Part shown: piece by piece, positions 7,030-19,680 of the stretch
Layout of the letters: each line of letters begins with the position of its first letter
Position numbering within the stretch: the first letter of the stretch is position 1
From: Alphaproteobacteria bacterium
GTDB taxonomy: Bacteria > Pseudomonadota > Alphaproteobacteria > ATCC43930 > CGMCC-115725
Reading direction: 5' to 3'
Length of the DNA stretch: 64,000 bases
Assembly (NCBI GenBank): GCA_028871055.1
Contig: JAGWON010000014.1
Location: 1-64,000 of the forward strand
Notes under the pieces: generated by a model
Databases searched by the model: none
What the model was told of the DNA's origin: nothing
What the model saw: the letters and a program-made list of their open reading frames with translations, nothing else
Program-made: the position numbers and the translations under genes

Positions 7030-8589
7030 ATGGTCGACACCCTGGAAAACGATCGCGAAGGCGGGAACGCCGCCGGCACCGCCGCGGCCGGCGGCTCGCT
7101 CGCCGACAAGACGGTCCGCGGCGCCGGCTGGATGGTGACCTGGCGTTTCACCACGCGCACCCTGGGCGCGCTCAGCACCTTCGTGCTCGCGCGTCTGCTG
7201 TCGCCGATGGATTTCGGCCTTGTCGCGCTCGCCGGCGCGTTTGCGCGCGCGGTGGACGCCATGGCGACGCTCGGCATCCAGGACGTGATGCTGCGCGAGA
7301 AGAACCCCGATGAATCCTACTACAGCACCGGCTTTACCCTGGGCCTCGTCCGCACCGGCGCCGCCGCCGTCGTCATCGTCGCCGCGGCCTATCCGGTGGG
7401 CCGCTTTTTCGGCGACCAGCGGCTGAGCGTCATTCTTCTGATCCTCGGCCCCCTGCTGGTGATCGAAAGCTGCGAGAACGTCGGCACGCTCGATTTTCGC
7501 CGTTACTTCCGCTTCGACCGCGATTTCATCCTCTTCATGGTGCCACGCGTTGCCGCGGTCGTCGCCACCGTCGGCACCGCGCTCGTCACCCGCAGCTATT
7601 GGGCCCTGGTCGTCGGCATGGTCGTCCAGAAAACGTCGCGGGTCGCGCTCAGCTATGCGATGCACCCGTTCCGTCCGCAGCTGACGCTCGTCGCCTGGCG
7701 GCGGCTGCTGGGTCTGTCGTCCTGGATCTGGGGCGCCAGCGTTGCCGGCTTCTGCCGCGAGCGCGCCGACTCCTTCATCATCGGCCGCCTGATGAACACG
7801 AGCGCGGTCGGCCTGTTCTCGGCCTCGCTCGAGGTCGCGTTGCTGCCGATCAGCGAGTTCGTCGAGCCGGTGGGTCGCGCGCTCTACGCCGGGCTGTCGG
7901 CAATTCACCACAGCGGCCGCGCGTCGTCCGACACCCTGGCGAAGGCCATGGGCGCGACCTTGTGCATCGTGCTGCCGGCGGGCGTCGGCATCTCGCTGGT
8001 CGCCGCGCCGCTCATCCGCGTCACGCTCGGTCCGGCGTGGCTCGGCGGCGTGCCGCTGGTGGCGATCATCGGGCCGTTCGCCGCGTTCTCGGTCGTCACC
8101 AACATCGGCATGCTCGGCGTCCTGGCGATCGGCAATCCGAAGATCACCACCTTCACGACCGCCGCGATGGCGTTGCTGCGGGTTCCGCTGTTGATTGCCG
8201 GCGTCGCCTTCGGCGGTCTCCAAGGCATCGCCTGGGCCACCGGCGGCGCGCTGGCGCTCGAAAGCGTCATCTATCTCGCGGTCCTCGGCCGGGTGACCGG
8301 TTTCCGCGTCGGCGCCCTCGTCAGCGAGAGCTGGCGCTCCGCCGTCGCCACCGGCGGCATGACGCTGCTGCTGGTCCATCTCGGCCTCGCCTGGAACCCC
8401 GCTCCGGCCGCCCTGCCGGAGGCGTTCGCGCAGCTCGGCATCGCGGCCGCAACCGGCGTCGGCGCCTATGCGGCGCTGCTCCTGGCGCTGTGGGCGATCG
8501 CCGGTTGTCCCGACGGTCCGGAATCCCTGCTCCTGCGCAACGTCGGCCGACGCCTGCCGGTTCTCGCCTTCGGACGGCGGGCCACATGA
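7030..8589 (+). CDS. Oligosaccharide flippase family protein (Wzx/WzxC-like)
   Basis: A 519-residue polytopic membrane protein. After a 30-residue polar N-terminus the frame enters the typical flippase start (SLADKTVRGAGWMVTWRFTTR, then LGALSTFVLARLLSPMDFGLVALA), and about 12-14 hydrophobic segments follow. This matches the polysaccharide-synthesis/flippase superfamily (MOP; PF13440/PF01943), which moves lipid-linked glycans across the inner membrane. It is the first gene of a co-directional set, and its stop codon overlaps the next start (ATGA at 8586). The cargo is unknown; no glycosyltransferase or polymerase lies nearby. Confidence 0.85.
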   Translation: MVDTLENDREGGNAAGTAAAGGSLADKTVRGAGWMVTWRFTTRTLGALSTFVLARLLSPMDFGLVALAGAFARAVDAMATLGIQDVMLREKNPDESYYSTGFTLGLVRTGAAAVVIVAAAYPVGRFFGDQRLSVILLILGPLLVIESCENVGTLDFRRYFRFDRDFILFMVPRVAAVVATVGTALVTRSYWALVVGMVVQKTSRVALSYAMHPFRPQLTLVAWRRLLGLSSWIWGASVAGFCRERADSFIIGRLMNTSAVGLFSASLEVALLPISEFVEPVGRALYAGLSAIHHSGRASSDTLAKAMGATLCIVLPAGVGISLVAAPLIRVTLGPAWLGGVPLVAIIGPFAAFSVVTNIGMLGVLAIGNPKITTFTTAAMALLRVPLLIAGVAFGGLQGIAWATGGALALESVIYLAVLGRVTGFRVGALVSESWRSAVATGGMTLLLVHLGLAWNPAPAALPEAFAQLGIAAATGVGAYAALLLALWAIAGCPDGPESLLLRNVGRRLPVLAFGRRAT

Positions 8590-9656
8590 CGCGCGACCCA
8601 TCGGCGCAAGCGCAACGGCGCGCCCGGCTTCCGGCGGCAAGTCCGCCGCAACTTCTCGTCTTCATCGACACCGAGGAGGAGTTCGACTGGCAGCGGAGCT
8701 TCTCGAGCGACGCCCGGGCGGTCACGGCGATGAAGCACCAATGGCGGGCGCAGACGATCTTCGATCGCTATGGCGTCAAGCCCGCTTATCTCGTCGATTA
8801 TCCCGTCGCGGCGCAAGCGGACGGTTATCAACCGCTGCGTGAATTCCTTGCCGACGGCCGCTGCGAGATCGGCGCGCATCTCCATCCCTGGGTGACGCCG
8901 CCGGTCGAGGAAGAGGTCGGCGAGCGGCATTCCTTTGCGTGCAACCTGCCGCACGACCTGGAACGTCGAAAGCTGGTCATCCTCAAGGAGACGATCGAGC
9001 GCAATCTGGGCGTCGCGCCGACCATCTATCGCGCCGGACGTTACGGCGCCGACGCGGAAACGCGCGCACTGCTCGACGAGCTTGGTTTTGTGATCGACTC
9101 CAGCGTGCTGCCGTGGACCGACCTGCGGCGCATGGCGGGACCGGATTTTCGTCGCTGCTCGCCCGATCCGTTCTGGTTCGGCACCGACGACCGCTTGCTC
9201 GAGATCCCGCTGACGACGGGGTTCCTCGGCCTGCTGCACCGCGTCGGCGCCGACGTCTTTCCGTGGATCGGCGGCACGCGCGGCGTGCGGCTGAAGGCGA
9301 CCGCGATCTGCGCGCACGCGCGGCTGCTCGATCGCATCCGCCTCAGCCCCGAGGGCGTGACCATCGCCGAGGCGAAACGCCTGACGCGCGCCTTGGTCGG
9401 CCGTGGCGAACAAAAGGTCTTCGTCGTCAGCTATCACAGCCCGTCGCTCGGCGTCGGCCACACGCCCTATGTGCGGACGCGACGCGAGTTGGAGCAGTTC
9501 CTTGCCTGGCTCGACGAATATCTCGAGTTTTTCATAGGCGAGATCGGCGGACAGCCGGCGTCGGCGCACGACGTCTACTGCGCCATGGGCGCGGCTCAGG
9601 GCCGCATGCCGCCCCCGCTCGCGCGGCCGAACGAATCGCGCCGGGCGGCCGGTTGA
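8586..9656 (+). CDS. Polysaccharide deacetylase-like protein (WalW/NodB-type)
   Basis: A 356-residue protein of the carbohydrate esterase 4-like (beta/alpha) superfamily. The N-terminal strand LLVFIDTEEEFDW carries the Asp-Thr-Glu metal and catalytic region of the WalW-type branch. GAHLHPWVTPP gives the two histidines, and YRAGRYGADAET and VVSYHSPSLGVG correspond to later barrel motifs. It lacks a signal peptide, so it probably acts in the cytoplasm, or is not a classical secreted chitin or peptidoglycan deacetylase. Its ATG overlaps the flippase stop by 4 nt, so the two genes are translationally coupled. The real substrate cannot be read from sequence. Confidence 0.75.
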   Translation: MTRDPSAQAQRRARLPAASPPQLLVFIDTEEEFDWQRSFSSDARAVTAMKHQWRAQTIFDRYGVKPAYLVDYPVAAQADGYQPLREFLADGRCEIGAHLHPWVTPPVEEEVGERHSFACNLPHDLERRKLVILKETIERNLGVAPTIYRAGRYGADAETRALLDELGFVIDSSVLPWTDLRRMAGPDFRRCSPDPFWFGTDDRLLEIPLTTGFLGLLHRVGADVFPWIGGTRGVRLKATAICAHARLLDRIRLSPEGVTIAEAKRLTRALVGRGEQKVFVVSYHSPSLGVGHTPYVRTRRELEQFLAWLDEYLEFFIGEIGGQPASAHDVYCAMGAAQGRMPPPLARPNESRRAAG

Positions 9657-10091: not shown

Positions 10092-11309
10092 ATGAAAAAG
10101 GCTTTGGTCCTATCGAGCGTGTCGCGGACCGTATTGGCGGTGATCCGGTCGCTCGGCCGCGGCGGCGTCGAGGTGCATTCCGCGTGGACGCGGCCGGGCT
10201 GCGTGTCGCTGCGTTCGCGCTATGTCCGCGCCGCGCACGATCTCCCGCCGTACAGCGATACCGATTTGAGCTGGAAGACGGCACTGTGCGACCTGATGCG
10301 GCGCGAGCGCTTCGACCTGGTCATTCCCTGCACCGACATCGATACCCTCGCGCTCCATCGCCATCGCGCCGAGCTCGAGCGCTGCGGTCGCATCTACACG
10401 CCGAACGACGAAGCGGTCGCCGTGCTCTTCGACAAGCACCGCACCAACGAATTGGCGCGCTCGGCCGGCGTGCGCCTGCCGCGCGAGATCGTCGTCACCG
10501 ACGCGACCGGCGCGCGCGCCGCGTGGTGGCAGTTCGGCGCGCCGCTCGTCCTCAAGCCCCGGCGCACCTTCGATCACCCGACCCAGGGCCTCGCAGTGCG
10601 CAAAGCCTACAGCGAGGCGGAACTCTTGCGCCTGCTGCCGAGATTCCTCGCCGACGGGCCGGTCGCCGTGCAGCAGAATTTCATCGGCCACGGCGCCGGC
10701 GTCGAGCTGCTGCTCGATGGCGGCGAACCGCTGCTCGCCTTCCAGCACGTTCGCGTGCACGAGCCGCTCGAAGGCGGCCAGAGCGCCTATCGCAAGAGCG
10801 TGCCGGTGTCGCCGGACTTGCTCGATGCGGCGCTCCGCATCCTGCGACCGTTGCGTTACACCGGCGTGGCGATGGTCGAGTTCAAGATCGACCCGGCGAG
10901 CGGCGACTGGATTTTCGTCGAGGTGAATTCGCGTTTCTGGGGCTCGCTGCCCCTGAGCGTTGCCGCCGGCGCGGATTTCCCGCTCGCGCTGTTCGAGTTC
11001 CTCACGACCGGGCGGCGCGATTTCCCGCAGCACTACCGTACCGGCATCTTCGCGCGCAACTTGCCGCTCGACCTCGAGTGGCAGATCGCCAATCTGCATG
11101 CCGATCGCCGCGATCCCACGCTCGCGACCAAGAAGCTGCCCGCGGTCGTCGGCGAGACGATCGCCAATATTCTGACCCTGCGCGAGCGCTGGGACAGCCT
11201 GACGCTCGACGATCCGGCGCCAGGCATCGCCGAGATCGGCGGCCTCGTGCAGCGCGGCTTTGCCAAGCTGACGAAGCCGCGCCGCGCCCTCGATACGGAG
11301 ACCGCGTGA
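10092..11309 (+). CDS. ATP-grasp family ligase
   Basis: A 405-residue cytoplasmic enzyme with the ATP-grasp order of domains: an N-terminal Rossmann-like pre-ATP domain (KKALVLSSVSRTVLAVIRSL), a central ATP-binding half with a lysine strand (APLVLKPRRTF), and a C-terminal half with the acidic metal-binding strand (GVAMVEFKIDP, then WIFVEVNSRFWGSLPL). This resembles the carbamoyl-phosphate-synthase-like or PylC/carboxylate-amine ligase branch, which joins a carboxylate to an amine or thiol via acyl phosphate. The substrate is unknown. Its stop overlaps the GTG of the acyltransferase gene, so the two are probably coupled. Confidence 0.85.
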   Translation: MKKALVLSSVSRTVLAVIRSLGRGGVEVHSAWTRPGCVSLRSRYVRAAHDLPPYSDTDLSWKTALCDLMRRERFDLVIPCTDIDTLALHRHRAELERCGRIYTPNDEAVAVLFDKHRTNELARSAGVRLPREIVVTDATGARAAWWQFGAPLVLKPRRTFDHPTQGLAVRKAYSEAELLRLLPRFLADGPVAVQQNFIGHGAGVELLLDGGEPLLAFQHVRVHEPLEGGQSAYRKSVPVSPDLLDAALRILRPLRYTGVAMVEFKIDPASGDWIFVEVNSRFWGSLPLSVAAGADFPLALFEFLTTGRRDFPQHYRTGIFARNLPLDLEWQIANLHADRRDPTLATKKLPAVVGETIANILTLRERWDSLTLDDPAPGIAEIGGLVQRGFAKLTKPRRALDTETA

Positions 11310-12556
11310 GCGCGATGGCCGAGACGGCGATCCTTCTCCCGCGCCCGCCCGCGGAACCCGCGGCGCAGGCTCCCGACGATGCCAGGAGCCGCCGCCTCGG
11401 CAAGGAGGCGCGGCTGAGCGTCGTCGTCGAGCAGGATGCGGCGGGTCTCGAGCGGCATCTGCAGGCTTGGGAAGACCTTTCGACCACCGCGCTCGAGCCC
11501 AACGTGTTCTACGAGCCGTGGCTGCTGCGGCCGGCGCTGCGCCACCTGCGCGGCGGCGCCGATCTGGTGTTCGTCCTGGTCTATGCGCAGATGCCGGGTG
11601 CGGCCGACCAGCCGTCCGTGCTCTGCGGATTCTTTCCGCTCGAGCGGCTGAGCCATTACAAGAATCTGCCGGTCAGCGCACTCCGGCTGTGGAAGCACGT
11701 CCATTGCTTTCTCTCCAGCCCGCTGGTCCGCGCCGAGACCGCCCAGGCCTGCTTCCAGGCGGTGTTCGATTGGGCGGCGACCGATCCGCGCGGCTCGATC
11801 CTGATCGAATTCGGCGACGTGTCGGGCGACGGCCCGTTGTGGAAGGCCTTCGTCGAGTTCCTCGAAGACCGCCGCGATCCGACGCTGATGCTCGAATGCA
11901 GCACGCGGGCGCTGTTGCGGCCGCGCGCCGACGCCACGTCCTATCTCGATGCGGCGCTGTCGCCCAAGAAGCGGCGCACGCTCCGCCAGCAGGAAAGCGC
12001 GCTCCGGCGGCAGGGCGCGCTCGAATACGCCATGCTCGCCGGCGACGGCGACATCGACGGCTGGATCGAGAATTTCCTGCGGCTCGAAGCGAGCGGCTGG
12101 AAGGGCCGCGAGGGTACCGCGCTGTCGTGCAACCCGGCGCAGAAGCAGTTCTTCGCCGAGACCCTGCGCGAGGCGTTCCGCCGCGGCCGGCTGATGATGC
12201 TGGCCCAGACGCTCGACGGTCGGCCGATCGCGCAGCTCTGCAATTTCCTCTGCCGGAACGGTTCCTTCGCCTTCAAGGTCGCCTTCGACGAGGCATACGC
12301 GCGCTTTTCGCCCGGCGTGCTCCTGGAGCTCGAGAACATCGCCGAGGTCCACCGCCATGCCTGGATCCGCTGGATGGATTCGTGCTCGTCGCCGGGACCG
12401 TCGCTGACCAAGCAGCTATGGCTCGACCGCCGCATCGTCCAGACCATCCTCGCCACCTCGGGCCGCTCGCCGGGGCCGTTCCTGATCTCGGTGCTGCCGT
12501 TCATGCAGTGGACCTTCCACAAGGTCGAATCCGTCTTCCGCCGGCGCCGGCGGTGA
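11306..12556 (+). CDS. CelD/BcsL-type GNAT N-acyltransferase
   Basis: About 416 residues. The middle to C-terminal region (KKRRTLRQQESALRRQG, then FFAETLREAFRRGRLMMLAQ, then AQLCNFLCRNGSFAFKVAFD) follows the pattern of the Acetyltransf_6 domain (PF13480) found in CelD/BcsL proteins of polysaccharide clusters. These transfer acyl groups, or are FemAB-like and use aminoacyl donors. I chose the GTG at 11306 because it overlaps the upstream stop in a GTGA; the ATG at 11315 is the alternative. Together with the ATP-grasp gene it suggests acyl or aminoacyl decoration of a glycan. Confidence 0.8.
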   Translation: MSAMAETAILLPRPPAEPAAQAPDDARSRRLGKEARLSVVVEQDAAGLERHLQAWEDLSTTALEPNVFYEPWLLRPALRHLRGGADLVFVLVYAQMPGAADQPSVLCGFFPLERLSHYKNLPVSALRLWKHVHCFLSSPLVRAETAQACFQAVFDWAATDPRGSILIEFGDVSGDGPLWKAFVEFLEDRRDPTLMLECSTRALLRPRADATSYLDAALSPKKRRTLRQQESALRRQGALEYAMLAGDGDIDGWIENFLRLEASGWKGREGTALSCNPAQKQFFAETLREAFRRGRLMMLAQTLDGRPIAQLCNFLCRNGSFAFKVAFDEAYARFSPGVLLELENIAEVHRHAWIRWMDSCSSPGPSLTKQLWLDRRIVQTILATSGRSPGPFLISVLPFMQWTFHKVESVFRRRRR

Positions 12557-12572: not shown

Positions 12573-15446
12573 GTGACGCCGCGCAGCAATCTTCAACCCG
12601 TGACCGTGGCGGCGGCGCCGGCCGGCCCGCATCCGAGTGACTCGCCGCTCGCATCCGAGCGCGAATTCTATGCCGGCTATCCATGGTCGTTGAATCCGCT
12701 CTGCACGGTCGGCGACGCCGCCTGCCATCTCGGCGGCGCGCTGTCGCGGCTGACCGCCTTGACCGCCTCATGGCAGCGCGACGAGGCGATGATCAATGTC
12801 TTCCTCCTGGCCGGCGCGCTGCTGACCGCGGTCGAAGACGCGTTGCGCGGTCCGGTCCTGCGTGTTCCGCATCGTCTGGCGCGGCTGCCGGGCGCGCGCC
12901 GAGGTTTCGGCGCGCTGGCCGCCGTCCTGGCCGCCGGACGCACGACCGAGGTGCGACGCCTGCGGCGCTGGCGCGACGAATGGCAGGCCGCCCTCGGCGG
13001 ATTTCTGGGAATTTTTGCCGCCGGCCAGCCCGCCGAGGCCGACGATCTGGCTTCGGCGGTCGCCGGTCTCGCCGCGGTCCTGGCCCGGCCTTTGCCGCGC
13101 CGGTTCCAGACGGAGTTGATCCGGATCCCGTCGGCGTTCCGCAAGCAGGATCTAACGCATTTCGACGTTCTGGAGCTGGCCGATCGCTTCGCGGCGCGGC
13201 ACGCGGACCGGCGGCAACCGGTCGTGGTCGTCGGCCTGCGCACCGCCGGCGTCTATTTCGCGTCGCTGATGGGCGCCCGCCTCGCAGCGCGCGGCTTTCA
13301 CCGCGTCGCGACGCTGACCGTCCGGCCGACCAAGGGGCTTTCCGCCGAGGAGACGCAACGGCTGCGCAAGTTCGCCGCGGCGGGTTACCACGCGGCGCTG
13401 ATCGACGATCCGCCGTTCAGCGGCGATACCATCGGCATCGCGGTGCAGGCGCTGCGCCGCGCCGGTTTCGGCGCCGACGCGCGCACCGTCCTTTTTCCGG
13501 TGCATCCGCTGCGGCGCGACTGGCGCGACCACAAGGAGGCGGCGGCCTTTGCCGGCGAGACCATCGTCACGCTCATGCCCGAGGACTGGCACAAGGCCCG
13601 CATGCTCGACGCCGAAAGCGGCATCGCCGCGCGGCTGGTCGAGTATTTCGGCGCGCGCGGCTATCGCAGCGCGACGGTGATCGCGCATCATGCCGCCGCG
13701 GCCTTCAACGCCGAGCTCGACTATCGCTCGGGCGACTGCCGGCGGCATCGGCTCAAGCGGGTCTACGCCGTTCGCCTCGAGACTGCCGCCGGCCGCAGCG
13801 AGACGCGCTATGTCTTCGCCAAGAGCGTCGGCTGGGGCTGGCTCGGCTACGCGGCCTTCCTGGCCGCCGACCGGCTCGCCGGCCGCGTGCCGCCGCTGCT
13901 CGGCCTGCGCGAAGGCATTCTCTATACCGAATGGATGCCGCAAGCCGCGGGAACCGACCGCGCAACCGCGCCGCGCGACACGTGGGTGGCTACCGCCGCC
14001 GGCTATGTCGCCGAACGCGCCGAGCGGCTGGCGATCGCGGCGCCGGGCGCGCCGGACGCGCAGCACGAAGGCCTGGCGCTGCTCGCCGACACGCTGTCCG
14101 CCGCCTACGGCCCCGGCGTCGCCGGCCTGATGACGGAACCGCTGCGGCGCCGCATCGCGGCGCGCCTGACGCCGCGTCCGGCCCTGATCGACGGGCGGAT
14201 GGCGGCGGACGAATGGATCGCCGGCCCCAGCGGCCTGCTGAAAACCGATTTCGAGCATCACGGCATCGGCAAGAACGAGATCAATCTGTGCGATCCGGCC
14301 TACGATCTGGCCGATGCCGCGCTGCAGCTCGGTCTGTCCGCCGACGAAGAGCGCGAGCTGATTGCGCGCTACGGTGCCGCGACCGGCGACGCGCCGCGCG
14401 GCGAGCGCCTCCTGCTGTGCAAGCTGGCGGCCGGGCTGTGGACGCGCCAGGCGGCGCTCGACGGCCTCGTGAAGCAGCCGCACCTCGCGCATCGCGCCGG
14501 CGCGTTCAACGCGCAGTACCTGAAGGCGTGGAATTTTCTCATCCGCGAGAGCGCGCGGTACTGCGGCGCACTCTGCTTGCCGTCGGCGCCGCCGGCCTGG
14601 CGCGCGCCGCTGACGGTGCTCGATCTCGACGGTGTGGTCGATCGCCGGATCTTCGGCTTCCCGACGACCACCGCGGCGGGCATCGCCGCGCTGGCCCTGC
14701 TGCGCGCGCGCGGCTTCGCCATCGCGGTCGACACGGCGCGGCCGGCGCCCCAGGTTCGCGATTACTGCGCGGCCTATGGCTTCGTCGGCGGCGTTGCCGA
14801 GTGCGGCGCCTATGTCTGGGATGCGACGGCGCGGCAAGGCCGCGTCTTGCTCGACGAGGCCGCGCTGGAGCAGCTTGCGACGTTGCGCGCGCTGCTCCGG
14901 GACCTGCCCGGCGTGTTCGTCGACGACGACTATGAATTCTCGATCCGCGCCTACACCTACACGCGCAAGGGCACGGCGCCGCTGCCCGAATTGCTGGTGC
15001 GCAACCTCATCGCCGCGCGGAATTTCGACCGCCTCGCCGCCCACCAGACGACGATCGACACGCTGATCCTGGCCAAGGGCGCCGACAAAGGCAGCGGCCT
15101 GGCAGCGCTGCTCGCGTGGACCGGGCTGGATCGCGGCGATACCGTCGCGGTCGGCGATTCCGAAACCGATCTGCCGATGTTCGCGGTCGCCCAACGCAGC
15201 TTTGCGCCGGCGCACATCGATTGCGGCCGGCTGGCGCGCGCGGCCGGCTGCGAGGTGGCGCGGGCGCCCTTCCAGCGCGGCCTGCTCGAGATCGCGCAGC
15301 GCATCGCCGGCTCCGGCGAAATCCCCATCGCGGCCGCACCGGACGACCTCTTCTGGACGCTCTTGCGCGCCGCGGACCGGCCGCGCGCGGCGAATTTCTG
15401 GCGCGCCCTGCGCGAGCCCTCGGCCTATCGCGTCTTTCTGGCCTGA
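12573..15446 (+). CDS. Fusion protein: phosphoribosyltransferase-like, kinase-like and HAD phosphatase domains
   Basis: A 957-residue cytoplasmic protein with at least three enzyme-like parts. Residues 1-150 are helical and unassigned. Residues about 190-330 look like a type I phosphoribosyltransferase: VVVVGLRTAGVYFASLM near 217 and a PRPP-loop-like LIDDPPFSGDT with Asp278. Residues about 370-600 look like an aminoglycoside-phosphotransferase-type kinase (KTDFEHHGIGKNEINLCDP from 557, then AYDLADAAL). Residues about 680-900 are a HAD phosphatase of the Cof/C2-cap type with DLDGVVD (Asp684), a Lys in GADKGSG and GDSETD (Asp862). It uses a GTG start 16 nt after the acyltransferase gene and ends the five-gene set. 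I know no characterised protein with this domain order. Confidence 0.7.
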   Translation: MTPRSNLQPVTVAAAPAGPHPSDSPLASEREFYAGYPWSLNPLCTVGDAACHLGGALSRLTALTASWQRDEAMINVFLLAGALLTAVEDALRGPVLRVPHRLARLPGARRGFGALAAVLAAGRTTEVRRLRRWRDEWQAALGGFLGIFAAGQPAEADDLASAVAGLAAVLARPLPRRFQTELIRIPSAFRKQDLTHFDVLELADRFAARHADRRQPVVVVGLRTAGVYFASLMGARLAARGFHRVATLTVRPTKGLSAEETQRLRKFAAAGYHAALIDDPPFSGDTIGIAVQALRRAGFGADARTVLFPVHPLRRDWRDHKEAAAFAGETIVTLMPEDWHKARMLDAESGIAARLVEYFGARGYRSATVIAHHAAAAFNAELDYRSGDCRRHRLKRVYAVRLETAAGRSETRYVFAKSVGWGWLGYAAFLAADRLAGRVPPLLGLREGILYTEWMPQAAGTDRATAPRDTWVATAAGYVAERAERLAIAAPGAPDAQHEGLALLADTLSAAYGPGVAGLMTEPLRRRIAARLTPRPALIDGRMAADEWIAGPSGLLKTDFEHHGIGKNEINLCDPAYDLADAALQLGLSADEERELIARYGAATGDAPRGERLLLCKLAAGLWTRQAALDGLVKQPHLAHRAGAFNAQYLKAWNFLIRESARYCGALCLPSAPPAWRAPLTVLDLDGVVDRRIFGFPTTTAAGIAALALLRARGFAIAVDTARPAPQVRDYCAAYGFVGGVAECGAYVWDATARQGRVLLDEAALEQLATLRALLRDLPGVFVDDDYEFSIRAYTYTRKGTAPLPELLVRNLIAARNFDRLAAHQTTIDTLILAKGADKGSGLAALLAWTGLDRGDTVAVGDSETDLPMFAVAQRSFAPAHIDCGRLARAAGCEVARAPFQRGLLEIAQRIAGSGEIPIAAAPDDLFWTLLRAADRPRAANFWRALREPSAYRVFLA

Positions 15447-15455
15447 GCGAACGAT

Positions 15456-15471
15456 CGGCGTTCGGACGCCG
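15456..15471 (+). terminator. Hairpin after the five-gene set
   Basis: CGGCGT-TCGG-ACGCCG forms a 6-bp stem with a 4-nt loop 10 nt after the stop codon at 15446. There is no U-tract, so it is a weak terminator candidate. Confidence 0.3.
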
Positions 15472-15583
15472 AGATTCGAGTCACCAACTACACAGAGAGC
15501 GTGCGGGCATACATCTCCGGATCGGCCTGTCTGATCCAAGGCCGTGATGCCGCACAACGCGGGCCGACCACTTCGTTGACCGC

Positions 15584-15602
15584 TATACGACATTGTCGTA
15601 TA
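15584..15602. promoter_or_regulatory. Palindromic operator of the HigA/HigB-type operon
   Basis: TATACGAC-ATT-GTCGTATA is a perfect inverted repeat with 8-bp arms. It ends 7 nt before the antitoxin ATG at 15610, and no Shine-Dalgarno sequence fits in between. XRE-type antitoxins commonly bind such palindromes to repress their own operon. The TATA-rich arms probably overlap the -10 region, implying a leaderless or nearly leaderless transcript. Confidence 0.7.
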
Positions 15603-15609
15603 AAGCGGC

Positions 15610-15942
15610 ATGCGAGCACGGAAGAAAGCGGTGCGGACGACGCTGGGCCGGCGGATCGAGAGGGCGGCGCTTGACGTCGCGGCCCACTTGCGTGGCAAGC
15701 GGCCCGGGCTTTCGTCCTACGAAGCGGTTGTTCCGGAAACCATCGACGTGTCGGGATTGCGAACGCGACTGGGTCTGTCGCAGGCTGCGTTTGCCCGGAC
15801 GTTCGGGCTCGATCTCACGGCGGTCCAGGCCTGGGAACAAGGCCGCCGCCGACCCGATCGGGCGGCGCGAATCCTGCTTGCGGTGATCGCCCATGAGCCG
15901 AAGGCCGTGCTGCGCACGCTGACGGTGGAAGCCGCCAAGTAA
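15610..15942 (+). CDS. HigA/NadS-type antitoxin with XRE helix-turn-helix
   Basis: A 110-residue protein with a C-terminal XRE domain: LRTRLGLSQAAFARTFGL followed by AVQAWEQGRRRPD is a canonical helix-turn-helix of the HigA/NadS type. The basic N-terminus (MRARKKAVRTTLGRRIERA) would wrap the toxin or DNA. It is expected to neutralise the RelE/HigB-like product encoded 28 nt downstream and to repress transcription through the palindrome at 15584-15602. Antitoxin-first order is the reverse of classical higBA. A later start cannot be excluded because no ribosome binding site precedes this ATG. Confidence 0.8.
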   Translation: MRARKKAVRTTLGRRIERAALDVAAHLRGKRPGLSSYEAVVPETIDVSGLRTRLGLSQAAFARTFGLDLTAVQAWEQGRRRPDRAARILLAVIAHEPKAVLRTLTVEAAK

Positions 15943-15970
15943 CAGCCAGACCCGCGCCAGCAACGAAATC

Positions 15971-16306
15971 ATGAAAGTCGTTGCCGGCCAAAATTATGCG
16001 CGGCGGGCGGCCAAGCTCCTGTCGCGAGAAGAACGCGCGATCGCCGAGGCCGAAATCATCGCGCGGCCGGATGCATGGCCGATGATTCAAGGCACCGGCG
16101 GCGCGCGCAAAGCGCGCATCGCGATGTCGGGCCGCGGCAAGCGCGGCGGCGCCCGTCTGATCTATTTCTACGCGCCGACGGACTCCTTCCTGGCGCTGCT
16201 CGACATCTACGCCAAGGGCGCAAAAGAGGATTTGACCAGCGCCGACAAGAGCGCGATCCGTGCGGCGATCCAAGCGATTCGCGCGGCGTTGCGGTCTGCG
16301 CCCTGA
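15971..16306 (+). CDS. RelE/HigB-like toxin
   Basis: A 111-residue protein with the HigB2/RelE pattern in the sequence GTGGARKARIAMSGRGKRGG and the following strand ARLIYFYAPTDSFLALLDIY. Family members are ribosome-dependent mRNA endonucleases, with the basic GRGKRGG patch contacting RNA. It lies 28 nt behind the XRE antitoxin and probably shares its transcript. The C-terminal helix (SADKSAIRAAIQAIRAAL) is typical. No truncation is apparent. Confidence 0.8.
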   Translation: MKVVAGQNYARRAAKLLSREERAIAEAEIIARPDAWPMIQGTGGARKARIAMSGRGKRGGARLIYFYAPTDSFLALLDIYAKGAKEDLTSADKSAIRAAIQAIRAALRSAP

Positions 16307-17227: not shown

Positions 17228-17866
17228 ATGGCATCTCGGCGAAATCTCCTGATTGGCGGCATTGGTGCTGCGGTGGTGGCAGCGGGCGGATGGATCGCGA
17301 TCGAGCGGTTCGGTCTTCTGGCGCCGGCGACGCATAAGACACCCGCGAAACCACCGCTCCTCGGCAACGTGACGGCTCCGAAACGCCTCGTCGTCTGGGG
17401 CAGTTACACATGCCCGTTCACGGCGCAGCTTTTTGTCATGTTGCGAAGCATCGTCGCGGATATGCCCCAAACGGCGAGCGTCGAATGGCGGCATTTCCCG
17501 ATTCACAAGCCCGACCCGGCTCTCCAGGTTGCAGGGCTTGGATTCGAAGGCGATCATTTTTGGGGCTTCACCTTCAGAGTCTTGAATCTGGTGTTGAAGG
17601 CGGGTGGGATGTACTCCGGCCTGACGCGGCAAAAACTCGACGAGTTCGCCGCCGCCGAAGGAGGGTCCGACGAAACGTTCAAGGCCGCCTATGCTGATCC
17701 GGCAAAATGGGCCGCCGTAAAGGAGGATCTTTTGGCCGGTCGTCTGCTCGGCGTCACAAGAACGCCCGGTTTGTTCTACAACGGTTATTTCCTGACGCCG
17801 ACCGGACTACCTGCGAACATCAAAGGACTGGAGATGTCGCTGCGCAAGATGTTGCAGACGGCATGA
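17228..17866 (+). CDS. DsbA-like thioredoxin-fold protein with CPFT active site
   Basis: A 212-residue exported protein. The N-terminus (MASRRNLLIGGIGAAVVAAG) has a twin-arginine motif and a hydrophobic segment, so it may use Tat and stay membrane-anchored. The thioredoxin-fold start reads RLVVWGSYTCPFTAQLF: Cys62 is kept, but the second active-site cysteine is Thr65. A cis-Pro region is visible near the end (VTRTPGLFYNGYFL). Typical DsbA/Com1 proteins have CPYC or CPHC, so this one could form mixed disulfides but not oxidise by the usual dithiol mechanism. It forms a pair with the secreted-protein gene upstream. Confidence 0.7.
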   Translation: MASRRNLLIGGIGAAVVAAGGWIAIERFGLLAPATHKTPAKPPLLGNVTAPKRLVVWGSYTCPFTAQLFVMLRSIVADMPQTASVEWRHFPIHKPDPALQVAGLGFEGDHFWGFTFRVLNLVLKAGGMYSGLTRQKLDEFAAAEGGSDETFKAAYADPAKWAAVKEDLLAGRLLGVTRTPGLFYNGYFLTPTGLPANIKGLEMSLRKMLQTA

Positions 17867-17881
17867 CGCGTCGCTCCGGCG

Positions 17882-18115
17882 GGGGGCGCCCGCAAAGAGA
17901 TAGTCGTTCCACGGCCAGCTGCCGCCCGAGCCGGTGAACTTCTCGGCGAGGATGCCGCCGCCGTTGAAGTAGAGGGTGGTGCCCTCGGGCGCGACCTGCT
18001 GATAGCGCTGATGCTCGGGATCGTAGGTGAAGGTGAGGGTGGTCGAGCCTTTGGCGATCGTCGCCGGCTTATTGAAGGCGGTGTAGGTGAGCGTCCGCCC
18101 GGCGCACGCGGTCAC
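17882..18115 (-). pseudogene. RHS/YD-repeat protein remnant
   Basis: The minus strand encodes about 78 residues of RHS-type sequence, including LTYTAFNKPATIAKGSTTLT, FTYDPEHQRYQQVA and TTLYFNGGGILAEK, ending in NDYLFAGA. These are features of RHS repeats just before the core region of large secreted polymorphic toxins. Homology stops on both sides without a start codon context, repeat array or core motif, so this is a relic of a much larger gene. It lies between the DsbA-like gene and a toxin-antitoxin pair. Confidence 0.65.
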
Positions 18116-18144
18116 CCGAGGGGCTGTCGGAAATGTGGCTTTGT

Positions 18145-18155
18145 GATACGGTATC
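18145..18155. promoter_or_regulatory. Small palindrome abutting the antitoxin start
   Basis: GATAC-G-GTATC is a perfect 11-bp palindrome ending 4 nt before the ATG at 18160. It is positioned like the operator of the HigA-type pair at 15584 and probably serves autoregulation. No Shine-Dalgarno sequence is present. Confidence 0.4.
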
Positions 18156-18159
18156 GACG

Positions 18160-18387
18160 ATGACAAAGCTGCTCGAAGAAGCGATTGCAACGATCCGCGG
18201 TCTGCCCGAAGACGATCAAGACTTGGCGGCGAAATTCCTCTTGGGATTCGCCAATCCGGATGCGCATCGCTATCGACTGAACGACGATCAGGCCGCGGCA
18301 GTCGAGCAAGCCCGCAGGGAAACGCGCGAAGGCAAGATCGCGACTGACGCGGAAATGGCCGACGTGTGGCGTCGCTTCCGCCGCTGA
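18160..18387 (+). CDS. Antitoxin of a ParE/RelE-type pair
   Basis: A 75-residue, helical, charged protein (LLEEAIATIRGLPEDDQDLA, then DDQAAAVEQARRETREG, then a C-terminal DAEMADVWRRF). Proteins of this shape sit directly before ParE-type toxins in many proteobacteria. The C-terminal DAEMADVWRRF part is the expected toxin-binding tail. The downstream toxin start lies within its last codons. The DNA-binding part is not obvious, so the class is uncertain. Confidence 0.7.
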   Translation: MTKLLEEAIATIRGLPEDDQDLAAKFLLGFANPDAHRYRLNDDQAAAVEQARRETREGKIATDAEMADVWRRFRR

Positions 18388-18671
18388 TCCTGCGTTATAG
18401 CGCGCGGGCCAGGGCGCACCTCCTTTCCATCCACGATCACCTCGAGAAGGAAGGCAACGCCGCCGCCATTGCGCGGGTCGGTGCCGGCATTCGTGAAGCC
18501 GTGGAGATACTGCGTTACTTCCCGCAGGCAGGCCGTCCCGGAAGAATTCCCGGCACGCGCGAGTGGGTAACGCGACGATTGCCCTATATCGTCGTGTATG
18601 AGATTTACCCTGGCGGCCCGGGAGAGGTCGTAATTCTCGGCGTTTTTCACGCGCGACAGGCGCGGCCGTAA
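18366..18671 (+). CDS. ParE/RelE-family toxin
   Basis: A 101-residue protein with the ParE layout: LILRYSARARAHLLSIHDHL helix, EAVEILRYFPQAGRPG turn, and C-terminal strands (WVTRRLPYIVVYEI, then EVVILGVFHARQ). ParE toxins poison DNA gyrase, while RelE relatives cut mRNA; the sequence does not decide between them. It begins at a GTG inside the antitoxin gene (22-nt overlap), indicating translational coupling. The gene ends 6 bp before a displaced tRNA-Leu 3' end. Confidence 0.8.
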   Translation: MASLPPLILRYSARARAHLLSIHDHLEKEGNAAAIARVGAGIREAVEILRYFPQAGRPGRIPGTREWVTRRLPYIVVYEIYPGGPGEVVILGVFHARQARP

Positions 18672-18842: not shown

Positions 18843-19154
18843 CTAGGTCGAACGTCGCCGGGCCAATCGGTGCGCGCGCAATTTGCGCTCGCCCCGCATT
18901 ACATGGAGCACGAAGACCCGCCGGCCGTCATAGCGATAGAAAATCCGGCATGGCGGCTCGACGACCTGCCGGTAGCGCCAGCCGCGCAGCTCCTGCGGCT
19001 TGGAGCCGCTTTCCGGATGTTCCGCAAGCAAGGCGACATGGCGAAAGACAGCCTGAACCAGCCGGCGCGCCGCCTCCGGGTCGTCGAGCGCGATATGGTC
19101 GGCAATGGCATCGAGGTCGTTGAGCGCGGGCTCCGTCCAGATTACTTCAGCCAT
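18843..19154 (-). CDS. ParE/RelE-family toxin
   Basis: A 103-residue toxin: VIWTEPALNDLDAIADHIAL helix start, RLVQAVFRHVALLAEHPESG middle, and GWRYRQVVEPPCRIFYRYDG with RRVFVLHVMRGERKLR at the end. The order is that of ParE-type toxins. The ATG at 19154 lies inside the end of the Phd-like antitoxin gene (13-nt overlap), so the two are coupled. It differs from the ParE-like protein at 18366, so this is not a duplication. The pair sits between the two copies of the tRNA-Leu 3' end. Confidence 0.8.
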   Translation of the reverse strand: MAEVIWTEPALNDLDAIADHIALDDPEAARRLVQAVFRHVALLAEHPESGSKPQELRGWRYRQVVEPPCRIFYRYDGRRVFVLHVMRGERKLRAHRLARRRST

Positions 19155-19399
19155 CGCGCCAAGCGCTTGGCTGCCTGGGCGTGGGTCAACACGCGCCCCT
19201 CGTCGACCGCCTTCTCGCCGCGCGCGATGCCCTCGAGCAGCGCCATGCGCCGCTGCTGCCGCTCGTAGGACTGGACATCGATCAGATAGGCGGCCGGCAA
19301 TCCATGTTGCGTGATCAGCACCGGCTCTTGCTCGCGCTTCAACGCCGCGAGGAGCTTCGTCGCCTTCCGCTTCAGCGTGGTCACGAGCTCGGTGCGCAT
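19142..19399 (-). CDS. Phd/YefM-family antitoxin
   Basis: An 85-residue protein with the Phd/YefM pattern: LKRKATKLLAALKREQEPVL, then ITQHGLPAAYLIDVQSYERQ. The N-terminal half dimerises and binds DNA, and the C-terminal tail (AVDEGRVLTHAQAAKRLARW) should bind the overlapping ParE-like toxin. Two AGTGATACT repeats spaced by one helical turn lie directly upstream (19402-19421) and are the likely operator. There is no Shine-Dalgarno sequence before the ATG. Confidence 0.85.
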   Translation of the reverse strand: MRTELVTTLKRKATKLLAALKREQEPVLITQHGLPAAYLIDVQSYERQQRRMALLEGIARGEKAVDEGRVLTHAQAAKRLARWLK

Positions 19400-19401
19400 A
19401 G

Positions 19402-19421
19402 AGTGATACTAAAGTGATACT
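19402..19421. promoter_or_regulatory. Direct-repeat operator of the Phd-type operon
   Basis: AGTGATACT occurs twice (19402-19410 and 19413-19421) with an 11-bp period, so both faces align on the helix. It starts 3 nt upstream of the Phd-like start codon and probably also covers the -10 region (TAGTAT on the minus strand). Confidence 0.55.
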
Positions 19422-19593
19422 CGGGGAGATGCAAGCGACCCTTCTTACATGCGTCGCCAGACCTTTCCTGGGCGGCGTTCGACACGTCCAGCCCGCCAAA
19501 CCGCGCCTTCCAGGTCGCGCCGCCGATCGGACGACGAACGGATTCGCGTTCCGCGATTGCCGCGTTTGGAAGACCTGCGCGAATTTCTGGCGC

Positions 19594-19680
19594 TGGTGCC
19601 CCTGGCCGGACTCGAACCAGCACGCCCTTGCGGGCAACAGATTTTGAGTCTGCCGCGTCTACCAATTCCGCCACAGGGGC
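19594..19680 (-). tRNA. tRNA-Leu (anticodon CAA)
   Basis: The minus strand folds into a class II tRNA of 87 nt including an encoded CCA. The acceptor stem pairs GCCCCTG with CAGGGGC. The D-loop contains GGTAGAC. The anticodon stem GCAGA/TCTGT holds the loop CTCAAAA with anticodon CAA. A long variable arm (TGCCCGCAAGGGCG region) and the T-loop GTTCGAGTC follow. It decodes UUG. A promoter lies 10 nt upstream. Confidence 0.95.

Follow-up and report, generated by a model that had tools for sequence, protein, structure and literature searches.

A candidate PRPP-dependent ribosyltransferase joining phosphoribosyltransferase, kinase-like, and HAD phosphatase domains in an alphaproteobacterial envelope operon

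Introduction

The addition of ribose from PRPP is a route into bacterial glycans that has only lately been recognised. The window analysed here, a 64,000-nucleotide stretch of an alphaproteobacterial contig, raises the question of what can be done by a single 957-residue protein that joins a phosphoribosyltransferase (PRTase) module, a kinase-like module and a HAD phosphatase module, encoded directly behind genes with a glycan flavour. A preliminary description of this DNA, made by reading the letters, had pointed out the three modules and suggested that the protein might make and dephosphorylate a sugar donor for the genes upstream. We asked whether the gene is genuine, how far each module assignment holds, how the arrangement is distributed among bacteria, and which function explains it best.

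Results

A genuine gene in which every module is under selection

The features of the gene, all on the plus strand, are as follows.

12573..15446, plus: 957-aa fused protein, N-terminal helical bundle + PRTase + kinase-like + HAD-IIB phosphatase (open frame, full-length orthologs, purifying selection per module)
12699..13112, plus: N-terminal helical bundle, residues 43-180 (low-confidence AF2 model resembling four-helix bundles)
13131..13532, plus: predicted PRTase domain, residues 187-320 (PyrR fold matches, weak Pfam PF00156 match, OPRT profile match)
13233..13250, plus: probable pyrophosphate-binding loop G221-L-R223-T-A-G226 (G221, R223 and G226 invariant in 15 homologs)
13398..13430, plus: putative PRPP loop L276-I-D278-D279-P-P-F-S-G284-D-T286 (D278, P280 and G284 invariant)
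13623..14567, plus: kinase-like domain, residues 351-665 (Foldseek, FN3K/APH N-lobe matches, choline-kinase profile matches; low model confidence)
13821..13823, plus: candidate N-lobe ATP-binding lysine K417 (K in 11/15 members, R in two, G in two actinobacterial ones)
14190..14219, plus: altered catalytic loop D540-G-R542-M-A-A-D-E547-W-I (D540 and R542 in 15/15; E547 in 13/15, K in two)
14241..14261, plus: DFG-equivalent segment K557-T-D559-F-E-H-H563 (K557 and H563 in 15/15, D559 in 13/15)
14607..15308, plus: predicted HAD-IIB (Cof-type) phosphatase, residues 679-912 (D684, D686, T721, K839, D862, D866; Pfam Hydrolase_3)

The frame starts with GTG and stays open for 957 codons, and full-length orthologs that share this start codon are found in two sister genomes, with 76% (L002) and 73% (L001) identity. 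Comparison of the window gene with each ortholog, module by module (Nei-Gojobori with JC correction), gave dN/dS values of about 0.15-0.19 for the PRTase module, 0.20-0.21 for the kinase-like module, 0.21-0.28 for the HAD module and 0.33-0.36 for the N-terminal part. Because the orthologs are full-length, the GTG start is common to all three and dN/dS is low throughout, the gene is real and each of its modules is maintained by selection. For the same reasons, purifying selection across modules and matching start codons, we rejected a random fusion or frameshift. The preliminary description was largely right in reading three modules in one frame, and the motifs it had picked out (LIDDPPFSGDT with D278, KTDFEHHGIGKNEINLCDP from K557, AYDLADA at 576-582, and the HAD set D684/Lys/D862) all lie where it had placed them.

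Several other candidates were discarded. A long reverse-strand frame (13152-15698) overlaps the fusion gene; nothing speaks for it as a gene, and long opposite-strand open frames are usual in GC-rich coding DNA. The fused protein has no PADLOC match that would make it part of a defence system, and phages and viral contigs gave no hit that would indicate a phage origin. Membership of a Ter stress module was likewise rejected: TerD-family genes were not found in the host genome, and the 957-aa protein has no Pfam match to the PRTase_2 or TRSP domains of Ter-type PRTases.

A PyrR-like PRTase behind a probable helical bundle

A full-length AF2 model built from three close sequences reached a pLDDT of 41 and was taken as weak support only. 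The N-terminal region (43-180) matches four-helix bundles with VIA Z up to 12 in a low-confidence AF2 model, a value that helical bundles often reach, and the corresponding segment of rhizobial homologs is weakly similar to it.

Residues 187-320 are best assigned, from the model, to a PRTase of PyrR-like fold. This module aligns with PyrR structures at Z 7.3-8.6 across 116-123 residues, again in a low-confidence model, and Foldseek leads to PyrR with a probability of up to 0.96. At the level of sequence, a profile of the core family described below matches the orotate phosphoribosyltransferase (OPRT) 2yzk among PDB sequences (E 0.0054), and Pfam PF00156 is matched both by the window protein (E 0.015, 15.0 bits) and by a Streptomyces homolog (E 3.8e-5, 23.5 bits), although both scores fall below the gathering cut-off of 26.3. 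Nine residues of the module are invariant in all 15 aligned members (G221, R223, G226, R251, P252, D278, P280, G284 and W317), and each of these proteins has D or E at position 279. By analogy with PRTase biochemistry, the G221-G226 loop is the probable pyrophosphate-binding loop. The PRTase-like module with an Asp278 PRPP loop that had been proposed at the outset is borne out by the PyrR fold match and by the invariance of D278.

A kinase-like domain that has probably exchanged its catalytic aspartate

A kinase-like fold with an FN3K/APH-type N-lobe is suggested for residues 351-665 by low-confidence models and weak sequence matches. The Foldseek list is headed by RIO, APH and protein kinases (best E 0.028); by VIA-align the N-lobe matches FN3K at Z 7.1 and APHs at Z about 6, in a range that the tool calls common; and two of the three matches in a PDB profile search (E<=10) are choline-kinase chains. 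The AF2 model of this part alone has a pLDDT of 50.5. Alignment of kinase-like and APH profiles by hhalign gave P 2.9e-5 with eight sequences and 0.098 with 35, so that the support depends on the APH set; its column-shuffle null produced scores of up to 136 and was unusable, and we did not rely on hhalign.

Residues D540, R542, K557, H563 and D578 are invariant in all 15 aligned members, and in each of them the position of H-x-D-x4-N is occupied by D-[GN]-R-x4-[E/K]. This register depends on an alignment with canonical APHs from the host and its relatives; R542 and D559 are spaced by 17, just as the catalytic Asp and the next Asp are in L037 and L041, two canonical APHs that the host genome encodes. 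Actinobacterial members have neither K417 nor D559. Because H-x-D-x4-N is replaced in 15/15 members, ordinary phosphotransfer by this domain appears unlikely. What had been described as an APH-type kinase is tentatively supported as far as a kinase-like middle part is concerned, but not as regards the catalytic HxD, which is absent throughout.

A Cof-type HAD phosphatase

From its sequence, the C-terminal part (679-912) can be assigned to the Cof-type HAD-IIB phosphatases. The domain alone matches Pfam Hydrolase_3 (PF08282) with E 4e-11 and 43.6 bits, above the cut-off of 20.9, and the match recurs in the HAD domains of both orthologs. Motifs I-IV are complete (D684/D686, T721, K839, D862/D866), as the preliminary description had anticipated, its lysine now being identified as K839. 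The cap is in the C2 position, with 37 residues from D684 to T721 and an insertion of 118 residues between motif II and K839. The domain reaches the cut-off of no named NCBIfam subfamily, and the families that it matches include SPP- and MPG-phosphatase types, which dephosphorylate freshly made glycosides.

The PRTase and kinase-like parts form one conserved core

The PRTase and kinase-like parts recur together, and their sequences argue that they form a single conserved, unnamed core family to which only the HAD was added. In tblastn searches of plasmids, one continuous stretch spans both parts in Streptomyces, Sinorhizobium, Ciceribacter and others, and Roseomonas is matched over the kinase-like part; with the Roseomonas protein as query, the whole core is covered in Sinorhizobium, Azospirillum, Rhizobium and Ensifer. 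In Sinorhizobium meliloti 1021 the homolog is encoded on pSymB (NC_003078.1, 253440-255086, minus strand). When 13 homologs, with the window sequences left out, were made into a profile, it matched a single one of 554 window frames, the fused protein (E 2.6e-22, residues 208-649), and 10 of 398 genomes in a phylum-wide sample match the core at E<=0.001, two of these scoring close to that limit. The core stands without the HAD fusion in rhizobia, Azospirillum and Roseomonas, and within the host's family no genus but the window's showed the HAD-IIB fusion. The view of three separate modules joined in this protein needs amending: the modules are there, but two of them are conserved as one unit in other bacteria, and only the HAD is an added module.

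Streptomyces and Kitasatospora carry a separate HAD-IA gene directly 3' of the core at 3/3 loci, within a six-gene block on linear plasmids (L004, L009, L069) that encodes a GNAT, an oxidoreductase, a 155-aa protein, a methyltransferase, the PRTase-kinase-like core and the HAD. The core is thus associated with HAD phosphatases of two subfamilies, fused HAD-IIB and adjacent HAD-IA, in two phyla. Of 13 rhizobial-type loci compared, 10 have a histidine phosphatase and an inositol-phosphate synthase next to the core or close by. The histidine phosphatase may serve the inositol branch, given the adjacent synthase, and not the core, and we do not claim it as a partner of the PRTase. These genes are of the CobC/MSMEG_4193-like and mycothiol-type inositol-3-phosphate synthase kinds at L005-L008, L010, L071, L072, L074-L076 and L078, where glycosyltransferase and epimerase genes also surround the core. 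A literature search on the rhizobial core cluster found nothing.

Two further loci deserve mention. In the congener G415 the gene is gone but for a degraded kinase-like piece (contigs C166 and C191; loci L018 and L019), which suggests loss of the cassette; NrtR-like and RlmN/Usp genes flank the remnant. At one contig end (G071:C589; L012, L015) an inverted stretch nearly repeats the core's catalytic-loop segment, possibly as an assembly artefact.

An envelope operon upstream

Four same-strand genes, whose order is kept in L002, precede the fusion gene.

7030..8589, plus: Wzx/MOP-type flippase gene within the operon (PF13440 E 3.7e-59; NCBIfam MOP flippase family E 9.8e-27)
8586..9656, plus: polysaccharide-deacetylase-like gene (weak TIGR03006 match, E 0.05; 83% identical in L002)
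10092..11309, plus: ATP-grasp ligase gene (PF02786 over cut-off; PRK12767 E 4e-14)
11306..12556, plus: GNAT acyltransferase gene (PF13480 E 7.5e-22)

The first two genes are joined by an ATGA overlap, and the GNAT gene, which we take to be CelD/BcsL-like, overlaps the ATP-grasp gene and ends 16 nt upstream of the fusion gene. The NCBIfam model for the effector BspF also picks up the GNAT gene (E 6.6e-36), but far under its cut-off, and the name PF13480 acyltransferase of the envelope operon suits the gene better; a Ter-type match of the ATP-grasp gene (PF15632, E 2.8e-5) is weak and under cut-off. No classical glycosyltransferase gene was seen among the five operon genes.

Elsewhere in the window, three small toxin-antitoxin-like pairs were recognised by eye, namely HTH + RelE-like (15610-16306), antitoxin + ParE-like (18133-18671) and Phd-like + ParE-like (18843-19637, minus strand), together with a short minus-strand frame (17807-18190) resembling a piece of an RHS-repeat protein.

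Discussion

The explanation that we favour, and to which we give roughly even chances, is that the fused protein is a cytoplasmic PRPP-dependent ribosyltransferase of new build, working in two steps with 5'-dephosphorylation. The D278-D279 loop of the PRTase domain would hold PRPP, the presumed donor, and the domain would then move 5-phosphoribose onto an acceptor, most likely a glycan, a lipid-linked intermediate or an amino-sugar/cyclitol intermediate of the same operon. The C-terminal HAD-IIB would subsequently strip the 5'-phosphate, pulling the reaction forward and leaving a ribosyl group. The kinase-like domain, part of the ancestral core, has Arg in place of the catalytic Asp in all members, and for that reason is more likely to bind acceptor or nucleotide, or to hold the product in position, than to phosphorylate. 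Since no classical glycosyltransferase is present among the five operon genes, the PRTase could itself be the sugar-transferring step. In favour of this reading are the PRTase fold with its conserved acidic PRPP pair, the complete HAD-IIB motifs, the two separate arrangements in which the core keeps company with a HAD phosphatase, the proven chemistry of known PRTase+HAD enzymes, and the flippase/deacetylase/ATP-grasp/GNAT operon conserved in L002. Against it, PyrR/OPRT-like enzymes usually make N-glycosides of bases, the HAD differs from CrpP in cap class, the rhizobial histidine phosphatase may go with the inositol genes, and no sequence match to solved ribofuranosyltransferases was obtained among PDB sequences with either the single sequence or the profile (E<=1).

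The same evidence can be arranged differently. The PyrR/OPRT-like character of the PRTase would also suit an enzyme making an N- or O-riboside of a small acceptor that the HAD dephosphorylates and the ATP-grasp and GNAT partners decorate with amino-acid or acyl groups, the product being a small soluble molecule, either nucleoside-like or ribosylated; the weak Ter-type match of the ATP-grasp partner and the Streptomyces GNAT/oxidoreductase/methyltransferase/HAD block, which resembles a small-molecule cluster, point the same way. We nevertheless consider this unlikely, as the flippase and polysaccharide-deacetylase-like genes indicate a lipid-linked or extracellular glycan, and the genome lacks TerD. 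The flippase could instead export an activated ribose donor such as polyprenyl-phosphate ribose, and polyprenyl-phosphoribose pathways with HAD dephosphorylation do exist (PMC11127046). This is closest to the preliminary description, whose PRPP-then-dephosphorylate chemistry remains plausible beside a flippase and a deacetylase. A free donor is, however, the less likely variant compared with transfer to an acceptor followed by dephosphorylation: known PRTase+HAD enzymes modify an acceptor, the polyprenyl phosphoribosyltransferases known so far belong to the UbiA-type membrane proteins (PMC11127046) whereas the PRTase fold of the fused protein is a soluble one, and no partner GT-C was seen among the operon genes, all of which makes a donor product quite improbable.

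Two readings turn on the altered kinase-like domain, and we hold both to be very improbable. Loss of its catalytic Asp, and PyrR (which itself binds without catalysis) as the closest fold match, would fit a sensor or regulator in which the PRTase binds PRPP or nucleotides non-catalytically and the other two domains, kinase-like and phosphatase, react to this; yet the HAD catalytic motifs are complete and conserved, the PRPP-loop acidic pair is present, and the gene ends a biosynthetic operon. Conversely, the domain might still work as a kinase through a non-standard catalytic loop and, ahead of the transfer step, phosphorylate either the acceptor or the ribose. Most members retain K417 and D559, and the module is under purifying selection; but R542 replaces the catalytic Asp in 15/15, in a register that could be two residues off given the low confidence of the structure models, and the actinobacterial members are missing K417 and D559 as well.

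Should the ribosyltransferase reading be true, ribose addition would have another enzyme family of different build, and there would be more places to look for ribosylated products; among them are Sinorhizobium meliloti and Streptomyces, whose copies of the core carry no annotation beyond "hypothetical protein" or "phosphoribosyltransferase". A kinase-like domain with a fixed Arg for its catalytic Asp would be a further case of a fold repurposed. The broadest form of the claim is tentative and, on balance, doubtful: that the protein represents a novel class of ribosyltransferases using PRPP. In this class a domain of kinase fold, marked by an invariant D-x-R loop, would have been converted to acceptor binding or to some new chemistry, and the core would be common to rhizobia, other Alphaproteobacteria and actinobacteria and be paired, from lineage to lineage, with phosphatases unrelated to each other.

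Comparison with known systems places the fused protein among several enzyme groups. In butirosin (BtrL/BtrP) and cobalamin (CobT/CobC) biosynthesis, a PRTase step is followed by a phosphatase that takes off the 5'-phosphate, in both cases through separate, unrelated proteins without a kinase-like domain. Like the type I PRTases, PyrR and orotate phosphoribosyltransferases, the fused protein has the predicted fold and the acidic pair of the PRPP loop, but the loop of its family, D-[DE]-(G)-P-[PG]-[FL]-[ST]-G, is off the usual pattern, its extra domains are large and it stays below the Pfam cut-off. With the APH/FN3K/choline-kinase superfamily it has in common the predicted N-lobe topology, a DFG-equivalent Asp and the C-lobe motif D-x-x-[YW]-D-[LIV]-A, the core family differing in its replaced H-x-D-x4-N. 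Cof-type HAD-IIB enzymes (the SPP, MPG phosphatase and phosphoglycolate phosphatase groups) share the four motifs and the C2 cap, and several use phosphorylated glycosides; the window HAD differs in lying outside the named NCBIfam cut-offs and in its fusion to a PRTase-kinase core.

Closest in logic are the gPRT-PRP enzymes, in which a PRTase fold and a HAD also share one polypeptide tied to glycan genes, and PRPP is accordingly the donor we would expect here. Transfer of ribose-5-P from PRPP followed by dephosphorylation has been proven for Haemophilus Bcs3 (CriT-CrpP in Hib; PMC10299916), Campylobacter Cj1432 (PMC12096443) and the Klebsiella O4/O7 enzymes (PMC11231755), so that the impression of an enzyme without characterised counterpart holds for the exact order of domains but not for PRTase+HAD ribofuranosyltransferases. 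Characterised gPRT/CriT chains were not among the sequence or fold matches of the fused protein, with which a fold relation remains compatible. CrpP has a C1 cap, helical and placed just after motif I (PMC10299916), whereas the HAD of the fused protein is of the C2 (Cof-type) class, a point against the ribosyltransferase reading, and the fused protein adds an intervening kinase-like domain in the order PRTase-kinase-HAD. Our best reading is therefore of a protein that would follow the known PRTase+HAD logic, assembled from different parts.
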